Assembly (NCBI RefSeq): GCF_015234515.1
Contig: NZ_JADGMY010000017.1
Span: 20,826-84,825 of the forward strand
Origin: Cellulomonas sp.
Lineage (GTDB): Bacteria; Actinomycetota; Actinomycetes; Actinomycetales; Cellulomonadaceae
Reading direction: 5' to 3'
DNA length: 64,000 bases
This document shows positions 22,725 through 38,182 of this stretch, one piece after another. The position numbers and the translations under genes were made by a program. The first letter of the stretch is position 1. The number at the start of each line of letters is the position of its first letter. A model generated the notes under the pieces. That model searched no databases and was not told where the DNA came from. It was given only the letters and a program-made list of their open reading frames with translations.

Positions 22725-24194
22725 TCACCCTGCGTCGCGCGGGGTGGTCCCGGCCGCGCCCGGCAGGTCGCGCCGGCGCACCTTGCCGGCGTCGTCACGC
22801 ACGGGCGTGCGCACGACGTGCACGACGGTCGGGCGCCGTGCAGGATCCAGCCCGCGGGCGGCGTGCTCGAGCAGCGCCGCGGGGAGGACCTGCGACTCGG
22901 CGACGTCGACGACCGCCTCGAGGCGCTGACCGTGCTCGTCGTCCGGCACCCCGTACGCGACGGCCGAGCGCACGGCGGGATGCCGCTCGAGGATCCGCTC
23001 GACCTCGACGGGGTGGATGCGCTCACCGCCGCGGACGATGACGTCGTCCTCCCGGCCGGTGATCCACAGGTACCCGTCGGCGTCGAGGTGGCCCACGTCG
23101 CCGAGGGTGTCCCACCCGTCGGCGGTGCGTCGGCTGCGGGCACCGAGGTACCGGTAGGTCGGGCGGTCGCCGCGCCGCATCCAGACCGCACCCGGCTCGT
23201 CCGGGGCTGCCGCGGTGCCGTCGGGACGCAGGACGCGCACCTGCGTCCCCGCGATCGGGCGCCCCACGCTGCCGCGCCGCCGCAGCCACTCGTCACCGCG
23301 GATCATCGTCAGGCCGTTCGACTCCGACCCCGCGTACACCTCGACGACCCGCTCGGCACCCAGCCAGGTCACGAACTCCTCCTTGAGCCGTGGGGGGCAC
23401 GGCGCCCCGAGGTGCAGCACGGTCTCGAGCGACACCAGCCGCCGCACGTCGCGCTGCGCGGGCGGGACCCGCAGCAGCCGGTCCATCGTCGTGGGGGAGA
23501 GCAGCGTCCACGTGACCCGGTGACGCTCGACAGCGTCGAGCCACGCGCTCTGCTCGAAGCGGGGCAGGAGCACCAGCGTGTGCCCGGTGAGCAGGCCGCG
23601 GAACGCGTACGTGAAGGCCGCCGAGCCCGTGAGGGGGGCGCTGACGAGCTGCGTCGCCCGCCGGGGCAGGAAGTCGGCGACCGGCTGCTCGGGGTCGAGC
23701 AGCGCCGGTGCCGTGGTCAGCACGACCTTGGGCGTGCCGGTGCTGCCCGACGACGTCGGGGCCTTCCACGCGCGCGCCCACGCATCGGGCAGCGGACCGT
23801 CGTCCACCCCGGGGCGGTGACCCTCGGGAAGGGTCGGCGTCCCGTCGACCGCGAACCCGACGGTCACCGCGGTGCGCGCCGCCCGCACGACAGCCGCCCG
23901 GTCGGCGGCCGTCAGCGTGCGCGCGACCGGCTGCGGGGTGGCACCCACCTTCCACACGGCCGCGCACACCACGAGCATCTCCAGGCCGTTCGGCAGACAG
24001 ACCGCGACCAGGTCGTCCCGCGCGACGCCGCGCGCGAGCAGATCGCGCGCGTACGCGTTGCTGCGGCGGTCGAGCTCGCGCGCCGTCAGCGTCCGCTCGC
24101 CCTGCGCGGTCACCGCGACCGCGACGACGCGGGCGGGCTCAGCGTCGGCCAGCCGCCGCAGGATCCGCGAGATCGACAGGCGCGCCACGGTCAC
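22725..24194 (-). CDS. AMP-dependent acyl-CoA synthetase/ligase
   Basis: ANL-superfamily adenylating enzyme, expected to activate an unknown carboxylic acid as acyl-AMP and then acyl-CoA. Motifs are SSGSTGTPKVV (phosphate loop), EVYAGSESNG, ITGREDDVIVRGGERIHP and the catalytic Lys in DDAGKVRRRDL, so it looks active. GTG 24194 gives 489 residues and overlaps the preceding glycosyltransferase by 56 bases. It is the last gene of the Nit1C-type cluster; a ligase occupies the equivalent place in Mycobacterium smegmatis (family context from memory). Confidence 0.88.
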   Translation of the reverse strand: MTVARLSISRILRRLADAEPARVVAVAVTAQGERTLTARELDRRSNAYARDLLARGVARDDLVAVCLPNGLEMLVVCAAVWKVGATPQPVARTLTAADRAAVVRAARTAVTVGFAVDGTPTLPEGHRPGVDDGPLPDAWARAWKAPTSSGSTGTPKVVLTTAPALLDPEQPVADFLPRRATQLVSAPLTGSAAFTYAFRGLLTGHTLVLLPRFEQSAWLDAVERHRVTWTLLSPTTMDRLLRVPPAQRDVRRLVSLETVLHLGAPCPPRLKEEFVTWLGAERVVEVYAGSESNGLTMIRGDEWLRRRGSVGRPIAGTQVRVLRPDGTAAAPDEPGAVWMRRGDRPTYRYLGARSRRTADGWDTLGDVGHLDADGYLWITGREDDVIVRGGERIHPVEVERILERHPAVRSAVAYGVPDDEHGQRLEAVVDVAESQVLPAALLEHAARGLDPARRPTVVHVVRTPVRDDAGKVRRRDLPGAAGTTPRDAG

Positions 24195-25311
24195 CCCCGT
24201 GCGCCGCGACGGCCTGGTAGAACCGCTCGTGCGCGGCCGCCGCCGCGTCCCACGAGTGCCGCCACGCCAGTGCCCGCCCCGCGTCGGTGTCGCCCGCCGG
24301 GACCCCGTCCACGGCCCGGGCCAGCGCCGACGCGATCGACGGCACGTCGTGGCCGTACCCGACCTGGGCACCGAAGACCTCGCGGGTCACCGGCAGGTCC
24401 CGGGCGACGACCGGCACACCGGCTGCCAGCGCCTCCATCGCCGCCAGGCCGAAGCCCTCCTTCGTCGACACCATCGCCAGGGCCGACGCGCCGGCGACCA
24501 GCGGTGGGACGTCGTCGTCGGCGAGCGTGCCGAGCACCACCGGCGCGGTGCCCAGCTCACGCGCCCGCTGCTCGAAGCGCTCGCGGTAGGGCCGGTAGTC
24601 GAAGAGCGTCTCCCCACCGCCGAAGACCAGCCGCAGTGCCGGGTGCGTGCGGCGCAGCAGCACGAACGCCTCGAGCAGGTCGATCGAGCCCTTGCGCGGC
24701 TCGATGCCGCCGAGCGCCAGCACGTACGGACCGAGGCGCCCACGCCACGCCGCCCGCGCCGCCGCACCACCGGGCGCGGCGGCGGCCGTGAACCGTGCGG
24801 CGTCCACGCCGTTGGGGATGACCGTGGGCCGCACCCCGTAGGCGTCGGCGACCTCCTGTGCGACGGCCCGCGACACGCACAGGCGGGCCACCGGCCGGGT
24901 CACCGCGAGGTCGTGGCACTCCACGAGGCGGGGCGTCGTGAACTCGTCCAGGTGGTGGATCGTGCGCACGACACCGATGCGCGCCACGGCGGCGGCGTTC
25001 GCCGAGATGCAGTCCTGGGCGTGCACCACGCCGTCCACCGCGGTCCCGTGGGACCGCGCCAACGCCGCGCCCATCGCCCGGATCGAGCGCTCGATGCGCT
25101 CGCCGACGCTCTCGTCCTCCCGGGCGGCGAACGGCACGACCCGGACCCTCACCGTCGGGTCCACCGGCCGGAAGAACGCCGCGTCGCCGCCGCGGCCCAG
25201 GGTCCACACGCTCACGTCATGGCCGCGCCGCGCCAGCGCCTCCGCCAGGGCGAGCGTGTGCACCACACCGCCGCGCGGCCGGGTGGAGTAGGTGATCTGC
25301 GCGATGCGCAC
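24139..25311 (-). CDS. Glycosyltransferase, MSMEG_0565-like
   Basis: GT-B fold, GT4-type glycosyltransferase of 390 residues. The N-terminal RGGVVHTLALAEALARRGHDV and the C-terminal nucleotide-sugar region with STKEGFGLAAMEALAAGVPVVA (the EX7E motif) are visible. It matches the glycosyltransferase that accompanies nitrilase clusters of the Nit1C type. GTG 25311 follows the second nitrilase gene by 17 bases. Donor and acceptor are unknown. Confidence 0.88.
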   Translation of the reverse strand: MRIAQITYSTRPRGGVVHTLALAEALARRGHDVSVWTLGRGGDAAFFRPVDPTVRVRVVPFAAREDESVGERIERSIRAMGAALARSHGTAVDGVVHAQDCISANAAAVARIGVVRTIHHLDEFTTPRLVECHDLAVTRPVARLCVSRAVAQEVADAYGVRPTVIPNGVDAARFTAAAAPGGAAARAAWRGRLGPYVLALGGIEPRKGSIDLLEAFVLLRRTHPALRLVFGGGETLFDYRPYRERFEQRARELGTAPVVLGTLADDDVPPLVAGASALAMVSTKEGFGLAAMEALAAGVPVVARDLPVTREVFGAQVGYGHDVPSIASALARAVDGVPAGDTDAGRALAWRHSWDAAAAAHERFYQAVAAHGGDRGAPVDLADPAAAGRR

Positions 25312-25328: not shown

Positions 25329-26198
25329 TCAGGCGTGCGCGTACGGGCCGAGCCCGTACGCGTCGACGACGCGGTCACGCAGGTGGTGCATGGTGCGGCG
25401 CGCCCGCGTGACGTCGTGCAGCACGTCCGCGGTGGCCACCGCGAGGCCGCCCTTCGCCCACGTCTTGGCGACGATCTCCCCGGCCGGGTCCACGACCTTC
25501 GCCTGCCCCAGGAACCGCAGACCGCCCAGGACGCCGGTCTGGTTGGACGAGACGAGGTACAGCTGGTTCTCGGCGGCCCGCGCGCAGTCGTACAGGTCGA
25601 ACAGGTGCGCCTGCCGGTCGTTGCGGATGCGGTCCGAGCGGTCCGTGACGCTCGCCGGCCACGCACTGAGGCACGCGAGCACGACCGCCCCGTCGAGCGC
25701 GAGCGTGCGGGCCGACTCCGGGAACGTCTTGTCGAAGTCGATGAGCATGCCCACGCGCCCCACCGGGGTGTCGAACGCCGTGAAGCCCGTGCCCGCCCGG
25801 TACGCCTCGTTCTCCGCGAGCGGCAGGTGCACCTTGCGGTGCACCCCCAGGACCCCGTCGCCGTGCACCGCGAGCGCCGTGTTGTACCGGACCTCACGGC
25901 CGCCCTGCACCGCACGCTCCGCGATGCCGAAGCAGACGACCATGTCGCCGGCCATCGCCACGACCGCGGCCACCTCGGGTCCGTCGAGGTCCACGGCCGG
26001 GGGCAGCCCGCCGCCGTCGGGGCCGGCGCCGGGGTGGTACAGGTCGTGCAGGTAGCCGCCGATGGTCGCGTCCGGCAGCACCAGCAGGTCCGCCCCGCGC
26101 TCGCGGGCGCGGTCCACGATGCCGGGGAGCTTGAGCAGCGTGCGCTCGATGTCCCGACCGAAGTGCGCGGCGACCGCCGCCATGGTCACCGCGGTCAC
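25329..26198 (-). CDS. Nitrilase-fold protein lacking catalytic Cys and Glu
   Basis: The 289-residue protein is clearly a paralogue of the nitrilase at 27853-28755 (shared SAWPA, RFDLYDCAR-like, SNQTG, FLGQAKVVDPAGE segments). Of the Glu-Lys-Cys triad only Lys remains (HRKVHLPL). The Glu position reads LVLPDATIGGYL where the paralogue has VFPEASIGGYL, and the Cys position reads GMLIDFDKTFPE where the paralogue has GLQICYDKAFPE. Both changes are visible in the codons (GAC in each case). The frame is intact and the fold conserved, so it is probably expressed as a non-hydrolytic subunit, binder or scaffold. GTG 26198 is chosen by alignment to the paralogue; ATG 26183 is an alternative. Confidence 0.88.
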   Translation of the reverse strand: MTAVTMAAVAAHFGRDIERTLLKLPGIVDRARERGADLLVLPDATIGGYLHDLYHPGAGPDGGGLPPAVDLDGPEVAAVVAMAGDMVVCFGIAERAVQGGREVRYNTALAVHGDGVLGVHRKVHLPLAENEAYRAGTGFTAFDTPVGRVGMLIDFDKTFPESARTLALDGAVVLACLSAWPASVTDRSDRIRNDRQAHLFDLYDCARAAENQLYLVSSNQTGVLGGLRFLGQAKVVDPAGEIVAKTWAKGGLAVATADVLHDVTRARRTMHHLRDRVVDAYGLGPYAHA

Positions 26199-26217: not shown

Positions 26218-27528
26218 TCACGACGGGACGGCGACGACCCGGTCGCCGACGAGGTTCTCGCGCACCTCCGGCGGGACCGACGCCGTGAGCTGCTGCGCCA
26301 GGTGCTGCGCGTCGTCGGCGACCCCGAGGAACCTGCCCGACCCCCAGGTGTGCTGCCAGGGCAGACCGAGGAACGCCAGGCCCGGCACGGGACTGCGCCC
26401 ACGGACGTGCCGGGGGTGCCCCTCGTCGTCGAGCACGCGCGCGGCCAACGGTCCCAGCCACGACCAGTCGGCCCGGAACCCGACCGACCACACCACCGCC
26501 GAGATGCGCTCCACCGGCAGCGCCGCCGGCTCGTCCGGCGGCTGCCACACGGGCGTGTACCGCGCCTCGACCGGCGCGTCGATGCCCTGGGCCGCGATGT
26601 ACCGGTCGATGTCGTCCTTGATGGACTCCGCCACCGAGTCCGCGTGGTCCAGGTCGGCCGCCAGCGTGGGCGCGAACACGACGGCCGCGGCCCCGGCACG
26701 GTCCTCGACGCCCGTCGCCCGCCCGTACAGGTGCATCCCGCGGCGTGCGAAGTCCCGCAGGTCGACGTCCCGACCGCCGTCCCGGCCCGTCACGTAGTGG
26801 TTCGTGGACTCGCGCTTGGCCAGCCCCCGGGCGGCGACGGGGACGTCGTACACGCCCATCTGCGCCAGCCACGTCATGCAGTCCCTGCCCCGGTAGCGGC
26901 GGGCCACCCGCGGCGCGCGGCCCGCGGCCAGGTGCACCTCGCGGCCGGCGAGCAGGAGGTCCTCGGCGATCTGCGTGCCGGACTGGCCCGTGCCGACCAC
27001 GAGCACCGGACCGGCCGGCAGCTGGGCGGCGTTGCGGTACCGGTGGGAGTGGACCTGCACCACGTCGGCGGGCAGGGCGTCCGCCCAGGCGGGGGTCACC
27101 GGCCGGTGGTACCCCCCGACCGCCGCGACGAGCGCGTCGGCCGTCACCGTGCCCGCAGAGGTCGTCACCACGAACCCGCCGCCGTCCCGCGCGGCGACGT
27201 GCGTCACGGCGACGCCCTCGGCCACCGGGGCGTCGAACGTGTCCGCGTAGCCGCGCACCCACCGGTACACCTCGTCGCGCGTCATGAAGCCGTCCGGGTC
27301 GGGCCCGTCGTACGCGTACCCGGGCAGCCGGCAGTGCCAGTTGGGCGTCACCAGCGTGAACGCGTCCCAGCGGCCGTCGCGCCACTCGTGCGCCACGCTC
27401 TCCCGCTCGACCACGAGGTGGTCGACCCCGGCCGCGACCAGGTGGTGCGAGAGCGCGAGACCCGCCTGCCCGCCACCGACCACGACCACCCCGTGGTGGG
27501 CGCCGTCACGGACCGTCGCCCGGATCAC
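26218..27528 (-). CDS. Flavin-dependent oxidoreductase, MSMEG_0569-like
   Basis: Two dinucleotide-binding motifs are present, VVVVGGGQAGLALS (FAD) near the N-terminus and VLVVGTGQSGTQIAEDL (NADPH) mid-protein, as in class B flavoprotein monooxygenases. The length is 436 residues. It matches the oxidoreductase of nitrogen-starvation nitrilase clusters. GTG 27528 overlaps the upstream stop as GTGA. It would oxygenate or oxidise an unidentified substrate, possibly a nitrogen-containing product handled by the adjacent nitrilase. Confidence 0.9.
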   Translation of the reverse strand: MIRATVRDGAHHGVVVVGGGQAGLALSHHLVAAGVDHLVVERESVAHEWRDGRWDAFTLVTPNWHCRLPGYAYDGPDPDGFMTRDEVYRWVRGYADTFDAPVAEGVAVTHVAARDGGGFVVTTSAGTVTADALVAAVGGYHRPVTPAWADALPADVVQVHSHRYRNAAQLPAGPVLVVGTGQSGTQIAEDLLLAGREVHLAAGRAPRVARRYRGRDCMTWLAQMGVYDVPVAARGLAKRESTNHYVTGRDGGRDVDLRDFARRGMHLYGRATGVEDRAGAAAVVFAPTLAADLDHADSVAESIKDDIDRYIAAQGIDAPVEARYTPVWQPPDEPAALPVERISAVVWSVGFRADWSWLGPLAARVLDDEGHPRHVRGRSPVPGLAFLGLPWQHTWGSGRFLGVADDAQHLAQQLTASVPPEVRENLVGDRVVAVPS

Positions 27529-27860
27529 GCGTCACACCCCGGTGCAGCGGGCGTCGGGCCGGCCGGCGCGGTCGGCAGGGGCGGCGCCATGCCCAGCACC
27601 CGCACGGGTGCGGCCGGGTCGAACCGCGCGGCGAGCACGCCGATCGCCGCCTGCTGCTCGGCCGCGGACGTGCACCGCACCCCGTAGCGCTCGCGGACGC
27701 GGTCGCTCGCCTCGCCGAGGCCTCGACTGGTGCGTCGCACGAACTCGGCGACCGGGTACGTCGCCCCCACCTCCAGGTGGTCCCACATCACGAGGCTGGG
27801 GGAGTAGCACGCGGTGTCGGACCCGTCGGGCCAGCGCACGTCGAACGTCATCTCAGGCAT
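27525..27860 (-). CDS. MSMEG_0570-family nitrogen starvation response protein
   Basis: A 111-residue protein beginning MPEMTFDVRWPDGSD, the recognisable start of this small family found only in Nit1C-type clusters. Its biochemical role is unknown. ATG 27860 overlaps the end of the nitrilase gene by eight bases; a second ATG at 27851 is possible. The tail of about 30 residues is Pro/Ala-rich and probably disordered. Confidence 0.85.
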   Translation of the reverse strand: MPEMTFDVRWPDGSDTACYSPSLVMWDHLEVGATYPVAEFVRRTSRGLGEASDRVRERYGVRCTSAAEQQAAIGVLAARFDPAAPVRVLGMAPPLPTAPAGPTPAAPGCDA

Positions 27861-28755
27861 GGGCGGGCTCCCGGGTCTGCTGCGGCAGCGGCGTGCCGGT
27901 GTCGGTGACGGGTCCGTACGCGTCGGGACGTCGGTCGCGCAGGTGGAACATGCCCGCCCGCATCGCGCCGAACGTGCCCGCGACGTCGATCTCCGCGACC
28001 GCCAGCCCGGCGCCGAGCAGGGTGGTGGCCAGCACGTTGCCGCCGGGGTCCACCACCTTGCTGTTGCCGACGTACCGCAGCGACCCGAACGTCCCCGACT
28101 GGTTGGACGCGATCCAGAACACCTGGTTGTCGAGCGCGCGGGCGCAGTCGAACAGGTTGAACCGGTACGTCCACCGGTCCTCCTGCAGGTTCTCGGCCGT
28201 CGCGGTGCGCGCCGCCGGCCACGCCGACACCGACGCCACGATCTCCGCGCCGTCCAGGGCCAGGACGCGTGCCGCCTCGGGGAACGCCTTGTCGTAGCAG
28301 ATCTGCAGGCCGATGCGTCCCACCGGGGTGTCGAACGCGCGGTACTCCGACCCGGCCGCGTAGGACATCGCCTCGCCCAGCGGCTGGTGGACCTTGCGGT
28401 ACGAGCCGTAGACGTGGCCACCGTCGAGGCACACGGCGGCGTTGAACCGGGTCTGCCCGTCGGCGGCCAGCTCGCAGAACCCGATCACCACGACCGTGTC
28501 GCCGGCCAGCGCCTGGACCCGCCGGATCTCCGGGCCGTCCAGCCGGATCGCGGGGGGCAGCGAGCGGCTCGTCGTGCGGGCCGTGTCGCCGTGGTTGCCG
28601 AGCGACGACAGGTACCCCCCGATGGACGCCTCCGGGAACACGACGAGGCGGGCGCCCGCGGCCCGGGCGTCGTCGAGCATCTGCTCGATGACGGCGAAGT
28701 TCTGCTCGAGGTCCCGCGTGAAGTTCGCCGACACCGCGGCGACGGTGAGGCTCAT
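27853..28755 (-). CDS. Nitrilase (Nit6803-like)
   Basis: Carbon-nitrogen hydrolase that would convert a nitrile to the acid plus ammonia. The full catalytic triad is present: Glu in VVFPEASIGGYL, Lys in YRKVHQPL and Cys in GLQICYDKAFPE. The length of 300 residues is slightly short of the 330-340 of well-studied nitrilases. ATG 28755 is ten bases after the MSMEG_0572-like gene. In other bacteria this cluster has been linked to growth on cyanide or to nitrogen stress; the physiological substrate here is not known. Confidence 0.92.
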   Translation of the reverse strand: MSLTVAAVSANFTRDLEQNFAVIEQMLDDARAAGARLVVFPEASIGGYLSSLGNHGDTARTTSRSLPPAIRLDGPEIRRVQALAGDTVVVIGFCELAADGQTRFNAAVCLDGGHVYGSYRKVHQPLGEAMSYAAGSEYRAFDTPVGRIGLQICYDKAFPEAARVLALDGAEIVASVSAWPAARTATAENLQEDRWTYRFNLFDCARALDNQVFWIASNQSGTFGSLRYVGNSKVVDPGGNVLATTLLGAGLAVAEIDVAGTFGAMRAGMFHLRDRRPDAYGPVTDTGTPLPQQTREPAHA

Positions 28756-28765
28756 CGCGGACCCC

Positions 28766-29287
28766 TCACAGGTTGTAGGTCGAGTTGATGATGGCGCCCT
28801 TGCGCGCGTAGTGGATCAGCGCGTCCTGGACGTCGAGGGGGTGCGCCGGGATCACGCCAGCGATGAGGTCCTCCTCGCGCATGCCGTGCAGGGCCATGCC
28901 GAACCGGCAGCAGAACACCGTGCCGCCCTCCGCGATGAAGGTCTCCAGCGAGCCGTTCATGTTCAGCTCGCCCGGGAAGCCCGCGTCGCCCGTCGTGGGG
29001 AACCCGCGGTTCGCGGCGCACGCCAGGGCCCCGGGGCCGTAGAAGTAGATGGCGGACTCGAAGCCCTTGCGCAGCGCCCGTGTCGCCTGCAGGATCGCGA
29101 CGAAGCTCACGGAGGACTCGTGCGGGATGCCGTGCACGAGCGTGAGGTACGACTGACCCGGCTCCGCCTGGTAGTCGGGGAAGATCTTGGTCGAGCCGTA
29201 CAGGTTGGTGCCCTTCGGCAGCGACGGGTGCGGGATCTCCGCGAGCGACGCGTCGATGGCGGCCTGGATCTGGTCGTCGAACGGCAT
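28766..29287 (-). CDS. MSMEG_0572/Sll0783-family nitrogen starvation protein
   Basis: The 173-residue protein matches the Sll0783 family known from cyanobacterial nitrogen-stress studies. Characteristic parts are ESSVSFVAILQATRALRKGF, YFYGPGALACAANRGFPTTG and ETFIAEGGTVFCCRFGMALHG. The DsrE-like alternating pattern and the Cys pair are visible; activity is unknown. ATG 29287 follows AGGAGAG. It ends with the fixed-looking INSTYNL, ten bases before the nitrilase gene. Confidence 0.9.
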   Translation of the reverse strand: MPFDDQIQAAIDASLAEIPHPSLPKGTNLYGSTKIFPDYQAEPGQSYLTLVHGIPHESSVSFVAILQATRALRKGFESAIYFYGPGALACAANRGFPTTGDAGFPGELNMNGSLETFIAEGGTVFCCRFGMALHGMREEDLIAGVIPAHPLDVQDALIHYARKGAIINSTYNL

Positions 29288-29340: not shown

Positions 29341-30792
29341 TCAGGCGGTGCCCAGGCCCGTCGCCGGGCCGGGGACCGCGTCGGTGAGCGCGCCGTCCGG
29401 CCACCGCAGCCGGACACCCGGCCGCGCGGTGAGGACGCCGCACTCGGCGGACTGCGCGAGGGCGCCCGTCGCTGCGGGCATGCGCGACGTGCCGGGCGGG
29501 TCGGCGGTGAGCATCGCGAAGCCGGGGAAGCACGTGAGCCAGTCGCCCGTCGCCGCGCTCGCGGGCGCCGGCACACGCGCGACGTCGATGTCGGCACCCG
29601 TGCCCGACGCCTCGGCGAGCATCGCCGTCGTGCCCACGACCCCGGCCATCGACACGTCCTTCGCCGCGCGGGGGGAGGCCGTCGCGACGGTCGCGGCGAG
29701 GTGGCGCAGGTCCGCAGCGCCACGGGCCGACGTGGAGTCCCACTGCCGGCCCTCGAAGCCGCGGCGCCACCGGCCGGACACGTCGGCCGTCAGCGACAGC
29801 GCGTCGCCGGGCCGCCCGCCGCCGCCGGGCACCGGACGGGACGTGCGACCCAGGGCGGTGACGGACAGGGCGGCCGCCGTGCCGAGCTGCGTGTGGCCGC
29901 CCAGGACCGGGACGCCCCATGCCTGGGCGGCGCTGCGCACGCCGTTCATGACCCGGTGGGCGAACGACACCGTCGGTGCGGCCAGGGCGTCCAGCAGCCC
30001 GACCGGGCGCGCGCCCATCGCCGTGAGGTCGTTGACGTTGACGAGGACGGCGCACCAGCCCGCCCACTCCGGGTCGCGCTCGAGGAGCGCCGGCAGGATG
30101 GCGTCGCACGCGGCGACGAGGTCGGTGCCGGGCACGGGAGCACCGTCGTCCCCGCGGAACCCCGCGCCGCCGAGGGTGCCGCCCGGCAGCAGCGTCCCCG
30201 CGTCGTCGGCCAGCGCACCCAGCACCGACGCGAGGTCGGCCTTCGTGGCCCGGACGAGGTCGGCGACCCGGGTGACCGGCCAGCGCATCCGCACGTGCGG
30301 GGCGCCCTGCACGGTGCACGTGTCCCAGGCCTGCCACCCGAGGCGCTCGAAGAGCACGCGGTTGGGCGCCTGCACCGTGGCCTCGAACCGCAGGACACCG
30401 AGCTCGGCGGCGCGCACGCACGCGGCCCGGACCAGTGCCGCCCCGATCCCGCCGGCCCGGCGCGCCGTCCTGGCCACGACCAGCCGGCTGCCGGTCCACC
30501 AGCCCAGGTCGCGTCCCGCCGCGTCGAGCGCCTCGACCGCCGGGGACAGGCGCACCCCGCCCACGACGCGCCCGTCGCGGTCGACCGCGACGAGGACCTC
30601 CGTGCGCGGGTCCTCGTCGACGCGGTCGCGGTCGTGACCCGCGAAGAGCGCCTGCTCGTCGACGAAGACGTCGCGGCGCAGCGCCCGGTACTCCTCCACC
30701 TGCCGCGGTGACGCGGGCCGCACCGTCCACGGCGCCGGCACGACGACCGGGGCGGCGCCCGTGAGCGTCGGGACGTCGAGCACCTCAGCCAC
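29341..30792 (-). CDS. GNAT acetyltransferase-AIR synthase-like fusion, MSMEG_0567-like
   Basis: About 483 residues in two parts. Residues about 25-170 form a GNAT domain (EEYRALRRDVFVDEQ, acetyl-CoA loop RTARRAGGIGAALVRAA). Residues about 190-483 resemble AIR synthase/PurM-type ATP-binding proteins (VLVNVNDLTAMGARP, PVLGGHTQLG). In Synechocystis these are separate genes (sll0786, sll0787); a fused form is known in mycobacteria. GTG 30792 overlaps the end of the radical SAM gene; GTG 30783 is also possible. Confidence 0.87.
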   Translation of the reverse strand: MAEVLDVPTLTGAAPVVVPAPWTVRPASPRQVEEYRALRRDVFVDEQALFAGHDRDRVDEDPRTEVLVAVDRDGRVVGGVRLSPAVEALDAAGRDLGWWTGSRLVVARTARRAGGIGAALVRAACVRAAELGVLRFEATVQAPNRVLFERLGWQAWDTCTVQGAPHVRMRWPVTRVADLVRATKADLASVLGALADDAGTLLPGGTLGGAGFRGDDGAPVPGTDLVAACDAILPALLERDPEWAGWCAVLVNVNDLTAMGARPVGLLDALAAPTVSFAHRVMNGVRSAAQAWGVPVLGGHTQLGTAAALSVTALGRTSRPVPGGGGRPGDALSLTADVSGRWRRGFEGRQWDSTSARGAADLRHLAATVATASPRAAKDVSMAGVVGTTAMLAEASGTGADIDVARVPAPASAATGDWLTCFPGFAMLTADPPGTSRMPAATGALAQSAECGVLTARPGVRLRWPDGALTDAVPGPATGLGTA

Positions 30793-31852
30793 CCACCGCG
30801 GCGAGCGCGCTGCAGGCACCGCACGCCGCACAGCCGGCGGCCTGGTCCGAACCCCGCATGCCGGCGGCGCGCAGCAGGGACCCGACGCGCGCCGTCACGT
30901 CCGCGACCACCCCCCGGTGCGGCGCCGGCACCCTGTCGACGTCGGTCGCGAGCGTGCCCGCCAAGGGGCGGAACGGCACGACGAACGGGTAGACACCCAT
31001 CTCGACCAGCTCGGCCGCGGCGGCCACCATCTCGTCCGGGTCCTCACCCAGCCCGACGAGCAGGTACGTCGACACCTGGTTGCGTCCGAACACCCGCACG
31101 GCCTCGCGCCAGGCCGCGCGGTACTCGTCCAGGGGGACGGTCGACTTGCCCGGCATCCAGCGCCGACGGACCTCGTCGTCCATGGACTCCACGTGGATCC
31201 CGATGGACCGTGCGCCCGCGTCGTACAGGTCGGTGATGGTCCGCAGGTCGGCCGGCGGCTCGCACTGCACCTGGATCTCCAGCTCCGGCACCGCGTCCTT
31301 GACGGCCCGCACGCAGCGCGCCAGGTGCGTCGCGCCACGGTCCCGGCCGTTGGACGTCCCGGTGGTCATCACCATCTGCGACACCCCGTCGAGGTCCCGC
31401 GCCGCTCGGGCGACCTCCGCCAGGACGGCGGGCGTCTTCACGGCGATGGTGGTGCCGGCGGCGAGCGACGCCTCGATCGCGCAGAACCGGCACCGCTCGG
31501 CCTCGCCGTACCGGACGCACGTCTGGACCACGGTGGTCGCGAGGACGTCCCGACCGTGCAGCTTGGCGATCTTGTCGTACGACGTGCCGTCGGCCGTCGC
31601 GAGGTCGTAGAACCGGGGCCGCGCCACCGGCTGCACGTCCATGCCCAGGTCCGCGCCGTCGAGGGTCAGCCGGCCCCCGCGGACCACGTACGGGCTGGCC
31701 GGGTCCAGCGGGATGGCGGCCCCCGCACCGCCGATGACGAAGTGGCCGTCGTCGCTGGGGCCCGCACCTCCCGTGCGGCGGACGGGTGCGTCGCTGCGGA
31801 CGCCCAGGATCGCGAGGTCCACACGGGTCGTGAGCTGGTCGGTCGGCGGCAT
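30785..31852 (-). CDS. Radical SAM protein, MSMEG_0568-like
   Basis: A 355-residue radical SAM enzyme, the first gene of the Nit1C-type cluster. The cluster-binding cysteines are in TCVRYGEAERCRFCAIE (C-X8-C-X2-C, wider than the canonical CX3CX2C but characteristic of this family). SNGRDRG and an IHVESMDDEVRRRWMPGK segment follow. The C-terminus carries extra cysteines (GCAACGAC), possibly an auxiliary site. Its reaction is unknown. ATG 31852; upstream spacing and promoter are unclear. Confidence 0.88.
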   Translation of the reverse strand: MPPTDQLTTRVDLAILGVRSDAPVRRTGGAGPSDDGHFVIGGAGAAIPLDPASPYVVRGGRLTLDGADLGMDVQPVARPRFYDLATADGTSYDKIAKLHGRDVLATTVVQTCVRYGEAERCRFCAIEASLAAGTTIAVKTPAVLAEVARAARDLDGVSQMVMTTGTSNGRDRGATHLARCVRAVKDAVPELEIQVQCEPPADLRTITDLYDAGARSIGIHVESMDDEVRRRWMPGKSTVPLDEYRAAWREAVRVFGRNQVSTYLLVGLGEDPDEMVAAAAELVEMGVYPFVVPFRPLAGTLATDVDRVPAPHRGVVADVTARVGSLLRAAGMRGSDQAAGCAACGACSALAAVGG

Positions 31853-37558: not shown

Positions 37559-38182
37559 TCAGGCGGTCTTGGTGGCGAGGTAGGTCTGGACGCCCTTGGC
37601 CATGGCGGGCTGATGCTCGCGCATGATCTGCTGCAGGATCGGGCCCCGCGGCGAGGTGTGGTCGTACTCGAACTCTCCCGCCAGGGAGTACCAGGTGGTG
37701 GGGACGGCGCCGGCCTGGATCATGCGCTGCACGGCGGTGTCGTGCGTCTCACGGGTGAGGCTGCCGGATGCGTCGACGATCAGATTCACCTCGTAGTCCA
37801 GGCGGAGCGCTCCGAGCACGCTCTGCAGCACGCAGCCTTCGGTGGACACGCCGGCGATCGCGAGCTTGCGGCGGCCGGTCGCGGCCACGGCCTCGGCGAA
37901 GGCCGCGTCGTCGAAGGCGTTGGTCGCGCCGGGGCGTTCGATGACGGGGTGGTCGCCGAGGACGTCTGTCAGCTCGGGGTAGAGCGGGCCGGAGGGCTTG
38001 CCCTTGACGCCGTTGGTGACGACCAGCCCACTACCGAACAGCAGAGCGGTCTTGGCGAGTCCGACGGTGTTGTTGATGTGGGTGCCCAGGTCGTGGGACC
38101 GGAGCAGGTTCGCGAACCCGACCGCGTGGTCGATCATCACGATCGTCGTGCTCTCCGGGGTCAGGGGCTCGGGAACGGTCAT
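37559..38182 (-). CDS. Isochorismatase-family cysteine hydrolase
   Basis: A 207-residue YcaC-like hydrolase. The putative triad is Asp in VMIDHAVGF, Lys in NGVKGKPSG and Cys in GVSTEGCVLQSV, with the non-proline cis-type loop before Cys. Substrate unknown; family members hydrolyse amides, isochorismate or similar. ATG 38182 follows GAGGAGGCACCC. It is divergent from an HxlR regulator, a common pairing in which the regulator controls the hydrolase. Confidence 0.87.
   Translation of the reverse strand: MTVPEPLTPESTTIVMIDHAVGFANLLRSHDLGTHINNTVGLAKTALLFGSGLVVTNGVKGKPSGPLYPELTDVLGDHPVIERPGATNAFDDAAFAEAVAATGRRKLAIAGVSTEGCVLQSVLGALRLDYEVNLIVDASGSLTRETHDTAVQRMIQAGAVPTTWYSLAGEFEYDHTSPRGPILQQIMREHQPAMAKGVQTYLATKTA

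Follow-up and report, generated by a model that had tools for sequence, protein, structure and literature searches.

What can a nitrilase-fold protein contribute once it has lost the residues on which catalysis by this fold relies? The question is raised by a 64,000-nucleotide stretch of Cellulomonas sp. DNA (contig NZ_JADGMY010000017.1 of assembly GCF_015234515.1, positions 20,826 to 84,825; hereafter the window), in which a nitrilase-fold gene at 25329..26198 (minus strand, MSMEG_0566 position by gene order) shares a cluster with an intact paralogue at 27853..28755 (minus strand, MSMEG_0571 position). When the two products are aligned, the first has Asp43/Lys122/Asp154 where the second has Glu42-Lys121-Cys153. 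We refer to proteins with Asp at the Cys site as DKD proteins (the D group) and to the intact Glu-Lys-Cys paralogues as EKC proteins (the C group). Our answer, given tentatively and at slightly under even confidence, is that the DKD protein may be a pseudoenzyme that serves as a subunit in the actinobacterial Nit1C (gpr) pathway, pairing with the intact enzyme and tuning it. Probably it acts as a helper or a binder rather than as the amidase named in annotations.

The open reading frame (ORF) list and translation give the DKD gene a GTG start, an intact frame and a product of 289 amino acids. Both LVLPDATIGGYL and GMLIDFDKTFPE are found in this product, with the catalytic Lys lying within HRKVH, and the aligned segments of the EKC paralogue are LVVFPEASIGGYL and LQICYDKAFPE. 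On the minus strand, the codons are GAC for Asp43 at the Glu site (26070..26072), AAG for the retained Lys122 (25833..25835) and GAC for Asp154 at the Cys site of the nucleophile elbow (25737..25739). The protein belongs to the nitrilase superfamily, matching PF00795 with 120.2 bits against a gathering cut-off of 23.2, and has the alpha-beta-beta-alpha fold; its best match in its own genome is the EKC paralogue (49% identity, 272 bits), the next match scoring 29 bits. The covalent intermediate of this superfamily requires a Cys thiolate, and no usual nitrile or amide hydrolysis is therefore expected of the DKD protein. From the residues present, it very likely lacks both the Cys chemistry and classical C-N hydrolysis.

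Neither protein reaches the models of the best-known branches. Against the Nit6803 model TIGR04048 the DKD protein scores 25.9 bits and the EKC protein 39.1, both far under the cut-off of 502.6, and against the N-carbamoylputrescine amidase model TIGR03381 they score 82.5 and 113.9 bits, under the cut-off of 410.25. Both are nearer to archaeal amidases and N-carbamoylputrescine amidases than to Nit6803, and by these scores neither gene is a classical Nit1C nitrilase.

To follow the changed sites through relatives, we tabulated residues from 267 rows, of which 13 identical copies and 4 rows that were too short were set aside, leaving 250 distinct rows (125 D, 116 C and 9 outgroup). The Cys site is Asp in 125/125 D rows and Cys in 116/116 C rows, with no intermediate rows, and the full Glu-Lys-Cys triad is present in all 116 of the distinct C-group paralogues, whereas 0/125 D rows have Glu or Cys at the corresponding sites. 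The D group retains the pocket residues Lys122 and His124 in 125/125 rows and Glu129 in 124/125, while position 43, the Glu site, is Asp in 110, Gly in 7, His in 6, and Tyr and Gln in 1 each. Family f36 has Gln or Gly at the Glu site, whereas f57 has Gly and f14 His (L169:7250-8035, L044, L046, L010); the variants in f36 and f14, families that also have members without a DKD gene, may be steps on the way to losing it. Other positions at which the D and C groups differ almost without exception are 158 (Thr/Ala), 196 (Gln/Trp), 199 (Leu/Arg), 209 (Ala/Leu) and 230 (Leu/Val). At 158 a single D row of the 125, the orphan gene L166:6390-7178 of genome G422, has Val in place of Thr. The EKC rows L063-L066, L069 and L071, all six from beyond the class, bear the D-group letters at 196 and 230, so at these two positions the EKC proteins of the main clusters may be those that changed, although L065 and L069 themselves sit in main-type clusters.

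This pattern bears on whether the DKD protein could be a retooled enzyme in which the elbow Asp154, together with Lys122 and Glu129, serves as nucleophile or acid/base, a possibility that we regard as unlikely. The fixed Asp and the retained Lys and Glu129 would suit such an enzyme, as would a Glu site holding Asp or His, both possible bases, in 116/125 rows, and selection about as strong as that on the intact paralogue; some alpha/beta hydrolases, which have Asp in place of Ser or Cys at the elbow, provide an analogy. However, the Glu site has changed at least five times within the D group on our tree, and the Gly, Tyr or Gln found there in 9/125 rows is not what one would expect of a catalytic residue. 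To our knowledge there is no nitrilase-fold enzyme with an Asp nucleophile, which also counts against this explanation. More doubtful still is its specific form, in which the change from Cys to Asp would have created a new Asp nucleophile, or Asp/Lys/Glu acid-base chemistry, acting on an intermediate of the gpr/Nit1C pathway, the cluster then performing two reactions with one fold.

The history of the D group speaks to another alternative, that the gene is a decaying duplicate without function. The main tree was built from 84 representatives at 80% identity, with the triad columns removed and two long outgroup rows excluded. A single branch (support 95/97, recovered in 94% of 200 bootstrap trees) separates its 36 D rows from all others, while no branch sets the 42 C rows apart in this way; a quick tree of 86 rows gave the same D group with support 76. 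The D group is one old group, consistent with a single duplication. Gene conversion between the copies was considered and rejected, with identity within genomes at 0.493 and between genomes at 0.490, and the genome's own copy being the closest in 2/69 cases. Ratios of nonsynonymous to synonymous substitution (dN/dS) were calculated by NG86 for 106 close pairs among 69 named loci (dS 0.15-1.5), pairs that overlap and are not independent. The 99 D pairs had a median of 0.116 (range 0.022-0.276) and the 101 C pairs one of 0.112 (range 0.014-0.276); the D value exceeded the C value in 58/99 pairs. Purifying constraint on the D group is about equal to that on the intact paralogue and maintains the fold together with the pocket residues Lys122, His124 and Glu129.

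In favor of decay one can name the loss of two catalytic residues, the several lineages that have no DKD gene and one orphan copy outside any cluster (L166). Against it stand the age of the group and its spread over many actinobacterial families, the 57 columns that are invariant among 36 diverse members, the low median dN/dS, the full-length frames and the nearly fixed place of the gene. We consider decay very unlikely, to the point of being hardly credible; catalytic residues have been lost, and the loss itself is conserved under purifying selection, as in a pseudoenzyme. The first-pass annotation had described both Cys and Glu as replaced by Asp with Lys, frame and length kept, and the ORF, the codons and the alignment to the EKC paralogue bear this out. 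It had named a change confined to this genome under relaxed selection as the sign of decay, which does not agree with the 125 relatives or with the purifying selection given above. Of the conserved Asp-Asp clade with a fixed place for which it had proposed a test, part is borne out, in that there is one group with Asp invariant at the Cys site and a nearly fixed place, but Asp is not fixed at the Glu site, where some members have Gly, His, Tyr or Gln.

We ran whole-genome searches on samples of 396 genomes from the order, 394 from the class (match threshold E <= 1e-60) and 396 from the phylum. Both copies were found in 17/396 genomes of the order sample, each D-type being read directly. The class sample has at least one match in 49/394 genomes and two in 32, again with all D-types read. 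In the phylum sample 9/396 genomes have a match, with one further pair outside the class (G1089). As the window genome is counted in the order and class samples alike, 49 different genomes have the pair; 22 have the intact type only and 1 the Asp type only. Every D-type read from the sampled genomes has Asp at the Cys site, and the last 28 second copies of pairs comprise 27 that are EKC and one that reads.KC, truncated by a contig end. Among the genomes with a single copy, the class sample has 17, of which 16 carry EKC only (in G537 and G654 the EKC gene is at a contig edge) and 1 carries DKD only (G422). The order sample adds two with EKC only, namely G014, which has the full cluster without DKD, and G143, where the absence of DKD is uncertain, since the cluster runs into a contig end and its EKC gene is broken into two frames; the phylum sample adds G841, G861, G881 and G1095 from outside the class. 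The DKD gene is therefore nearly always encoded with an intact EKC paralogue, and the converse fails.

From a scan of genome contigs, the best 80 of 487 confirmed relatives were kept as named loci. One of the two peptide patterns behind these 80 includes the Asp, a bias from which the whole-genome searches are free. Among the best 80, the Cys site is Asp in 80/80, while at the Glu site 79 have Asp and 1 (L133) has Tyr. An EKC copy lies in the same locus in 74/80, five of the other six being cut by a contig end, and the MSMEG_0565 gene is next downstream of DKD in 71/80. These loci come from Cellulomonas, Promicromonospora, Microbacterium, Clavibacter, Curtobacterium, Rathayibacter, Frigoribacterium, Janibacter, Aeromicrobium, Nocardioides, Rhodococcus, Williamsia, Mycobacterium, Arthrobacter and Phytohabitans, among others. 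No fused EKC-DKD genes were seen, though no systematic search was made for them.

A mixed assembly of DKD with the EKC enzyme is plausible. As we picture it, Lys122 and Glu129 would hold Asp154 in a rigid set of ionic contacts, locking the pocket, and the DKD subunit would pair with its EKC paralogue in the dimer usual for the nitrilase superfamily. Part of the DKD C-terminal segment would then wall the entrance of the intact enzyme (in the nearest eukaryotic relative the segment is swapped into the pocket of its mate), and the walled entrance could tune the substrate choice or stability of that enzyme, chiefly where the pathway employs the MSMEG_0569 flavoenzyme. Several observations weigh against this pairing. 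C-terminal positions 275 and 277 are Asp in 114/116 and Arg in 113/116 C rows but variable in the D group, and Leu, Met, Val or Ile stands opposite Medicago Trp277 in the alignment; because the segment is only partly kept, we have slightly lowered the weight of this reading. A metagenome assembly (L134) has no intact copy on a contig that is not obviously cut there, and G422 has DKD without either the EKC paralogue or the radical SAM gene. The cluster is kept without DKD in G011, G014, G431 and, outside the class, G861, which means that DKD is not needed everywhere. Of the 48 radical-SAM genomes in the class sample that have either copy, none lacks EKC, whereas DKD tracks MSMEG_0569. In split mirror-tree comparisons, the D-C partial correlation is 0.34 in 44 loci, lower than the 0.57 for D and 0569, and -0.29 in the other 25, and D-C is the top pair in neither subgroup. 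The mirror-tree support seen with 69 loci pooled (r 0.81, partial 0.67) was lost after splitting and was rejected. Also set aside were EKC positions 94 and 238, where 84/84 paired rows share a residue that most of the 14 solo rows lack, and position 269 (84/84 paired, 8/14 solo), as the solo rows are mostly from one family and are not evidence.

A rival candidate for the partner is the MSMEG_0569 family flavin-dependent oxidoreductase (26218..27528, minus strand; TIGR04046, 581.7 bits, cut-off 498.35). The DKD protein might be a binder or scaffold for the 0569 step, and not for EKC, its dead pocket holding an unstable substrate or product and passing it on, an idea that we think improbable. 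In the class sample 0569 is above the family cut-off in 31/32 DKD genomes (not in G416) and in 2/16 clusters without DKD (Fisher p 3.5e-9), yet the association lies mostly in family f36 and represents few independent events. The 0.57 in the 44 loci is the joint highest partial correlation, and on ranks it is 0.62 and the highest; in the other 25 loci, however, D-0569 is outside the five highest raw partials, and DKD and 0569 are often genomic neighbors, so linkage could explain the correlation. Three streptomycete-like loci of this family without DKD (L153, L161, L164) have, by eye, a different oxidoreductase-like frame of the flavin adenine dinucleotide (FAD) type with a GxGxxG start at the 0569 place, which would suit a binder, but G011, G014, G431 and G861 hold 0569 without DKD, and Williamsia L135 and L150 have DKD and no 0569 in the locus. 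Given the class-sample contrast and the 0569 genomes without DKD, DKD is an accessory of the core cluster that goes with 0569 often but not always. The other FAD-oxidoreductase-like frame of streptomycete-like EKC-only clusters is about 550 amino acids long and occupies the expected place of 0569 and 0570 (L153:6673-8319 and L164:6474-8105, by eye).

The MSMEG_0568 family radical SAM gene is found in 54/394 genomes of the class sample, 48 of which have EKC (16 alone, 32 with DKD). The six with neither copy have lower radical SAM scores (371-396 bits), and a simple nitrilase motif matched nothing in their loci (L177-L182). By eye, an FdrA-like frame lies nearby in L177 and a carbamate-kinase-like frame in L179, neighbors that are a possible hint to the chemistry of the pathway.

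In the window all genes of the cluster are on the minus strand. The order of transcription is radical SAM MSMEG_0568 (30785..31852, TIGR04043), MSMEG_0567, a GNAT domain fused to an AIR-synthase-like domain (29341..30774, TIGR04045 and TIGR04050), MSMEG_0572/Sll0783 (28766..29287, TIGR04044), EKC, MSMEG_0570 (27525..27860, TIGR04042), 0569, DKD, the MSMEG_0565 family glycosyltransferase immediately downstream (24139..25311, TIGR04047), and an AMP-dependent acyl-CoA ligase-like gene (22725..24188) that, by profile matches and the loci of relatives, is often next in relatives too. With TIGR04042-04047 and TIGR04050 all above cut-off, the Nit1C/gpr set (radical SAM, GNAT, AIRS-like, 0569, 0570 and 0572) is complete. 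These matches agree with the first-pass description of two nitrilase-fold genes flanking 0570 and 0569; of the Nit1C-type cluster with an intact nitrilase that it had proposed, the accessory genes and the E-K-C residues hold, but neither nitrilase-fold gene is the classical Nit1C nitrilase. About 6 kb upstream of the cluster, at 37559-38182, is a YcaC-like cysteine hydrolase, whose 140.7 bits fall short of the 310 set for the family. The TGA of the EKC gene overlaps the start of 0570 at 27853-27860 (ATGCCTGA). Selenocysteine read-through of the MSMEG_0571 UGA has been proposed (PMC6039565). The EKC stop codon is TGA in 111/116 rows and TAG in 5/116, to which a plain gene overlap is the better fit.

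The Mycobacterium smegmatis operon MSMEG_0565-0572 is known as gpr, for GlnR-dependent peroxide resistance; it is activated by GlnR, and the operon mutant is peroxide-sensitive (PMC6039565). Under nitrogen starvation MSMEG_0566 rises 8.94-fold and MSMEG_0571 48-fold in one study (PMC4222082), and 2.96 and 4.06 in another (PMC4617892). MSMEG_0566 is called an aliphatic amidase (PMC4222082, PMC4617892, PMC6039565). Two other Mycobacterium loci (L142, L148) have the order 0572, EKC, 0570, 0569, 0568, 0567, DKD, 0565, which is that of the MSMEG numbering; going by this gene order, and not by its own sequence, MSMEG_0566 would be D-type. It matches the DKD gene in operon place, whereas its amidase label does not suit a group without the catalytic Cys and Glu. 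Nit1C clusters (Podar 2005, PMC1199592; Pseudomonas nitBCDEFGH, PMC11049912) share the radical SAM, GNAT, AIRS-like, 0569-, 0570- and 0572-type genes, but are described with one nitrilase gene where the window has an amidase-branch pair, neither member of which passes the Nit6803 model. N-carbamoylputrescine amidase (AguB/MtCPA) and the Pyrococcus amidase/nitrilase have Glu-Lys-Cys, unlike the DKD protein. Our literature search, with most subscription journals outside its coverage, found no description of the lost triad or of a Cys-to-Asp change, in agreement with the first-pass statement that no dead partner had been described in this cluster. As for the capping of a nitrilase spiral by DKD, the evidence on balance speaks neither for nor against the idea: the DKD and EKC proteins are nearer to the amidase/carbamoylputrescine-amidase branch than to Nit6803, which does not favor it, but the Medicago carbamoylputrescine amidase of that branch is an octamer like an incomplete helical twist (PMC4812014).

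The closest parallel to the proposed role comes from mixed plant nitrilases, in which an inactive subunit alters the specificity of the active one (PMC6214922). There the inactive subunit is an engineered mutant; the DKD protein would be a natural and ancient one, in a putative complex. The gpr operon, linked to peroxide resistance in nitrogen-starved M. smegmatis and present in many actinobacteria, holds an annotated amidase that is very likely not one. If the DKD protein is a natural inactive subunit, it would be the evolved counterpart of the engineered plant mixtures, and if its chemistry is new, the nitrilase fold would gain a further catalytic type. On either reading it offers a concrete handle on the gpr/Nit1C pathway.
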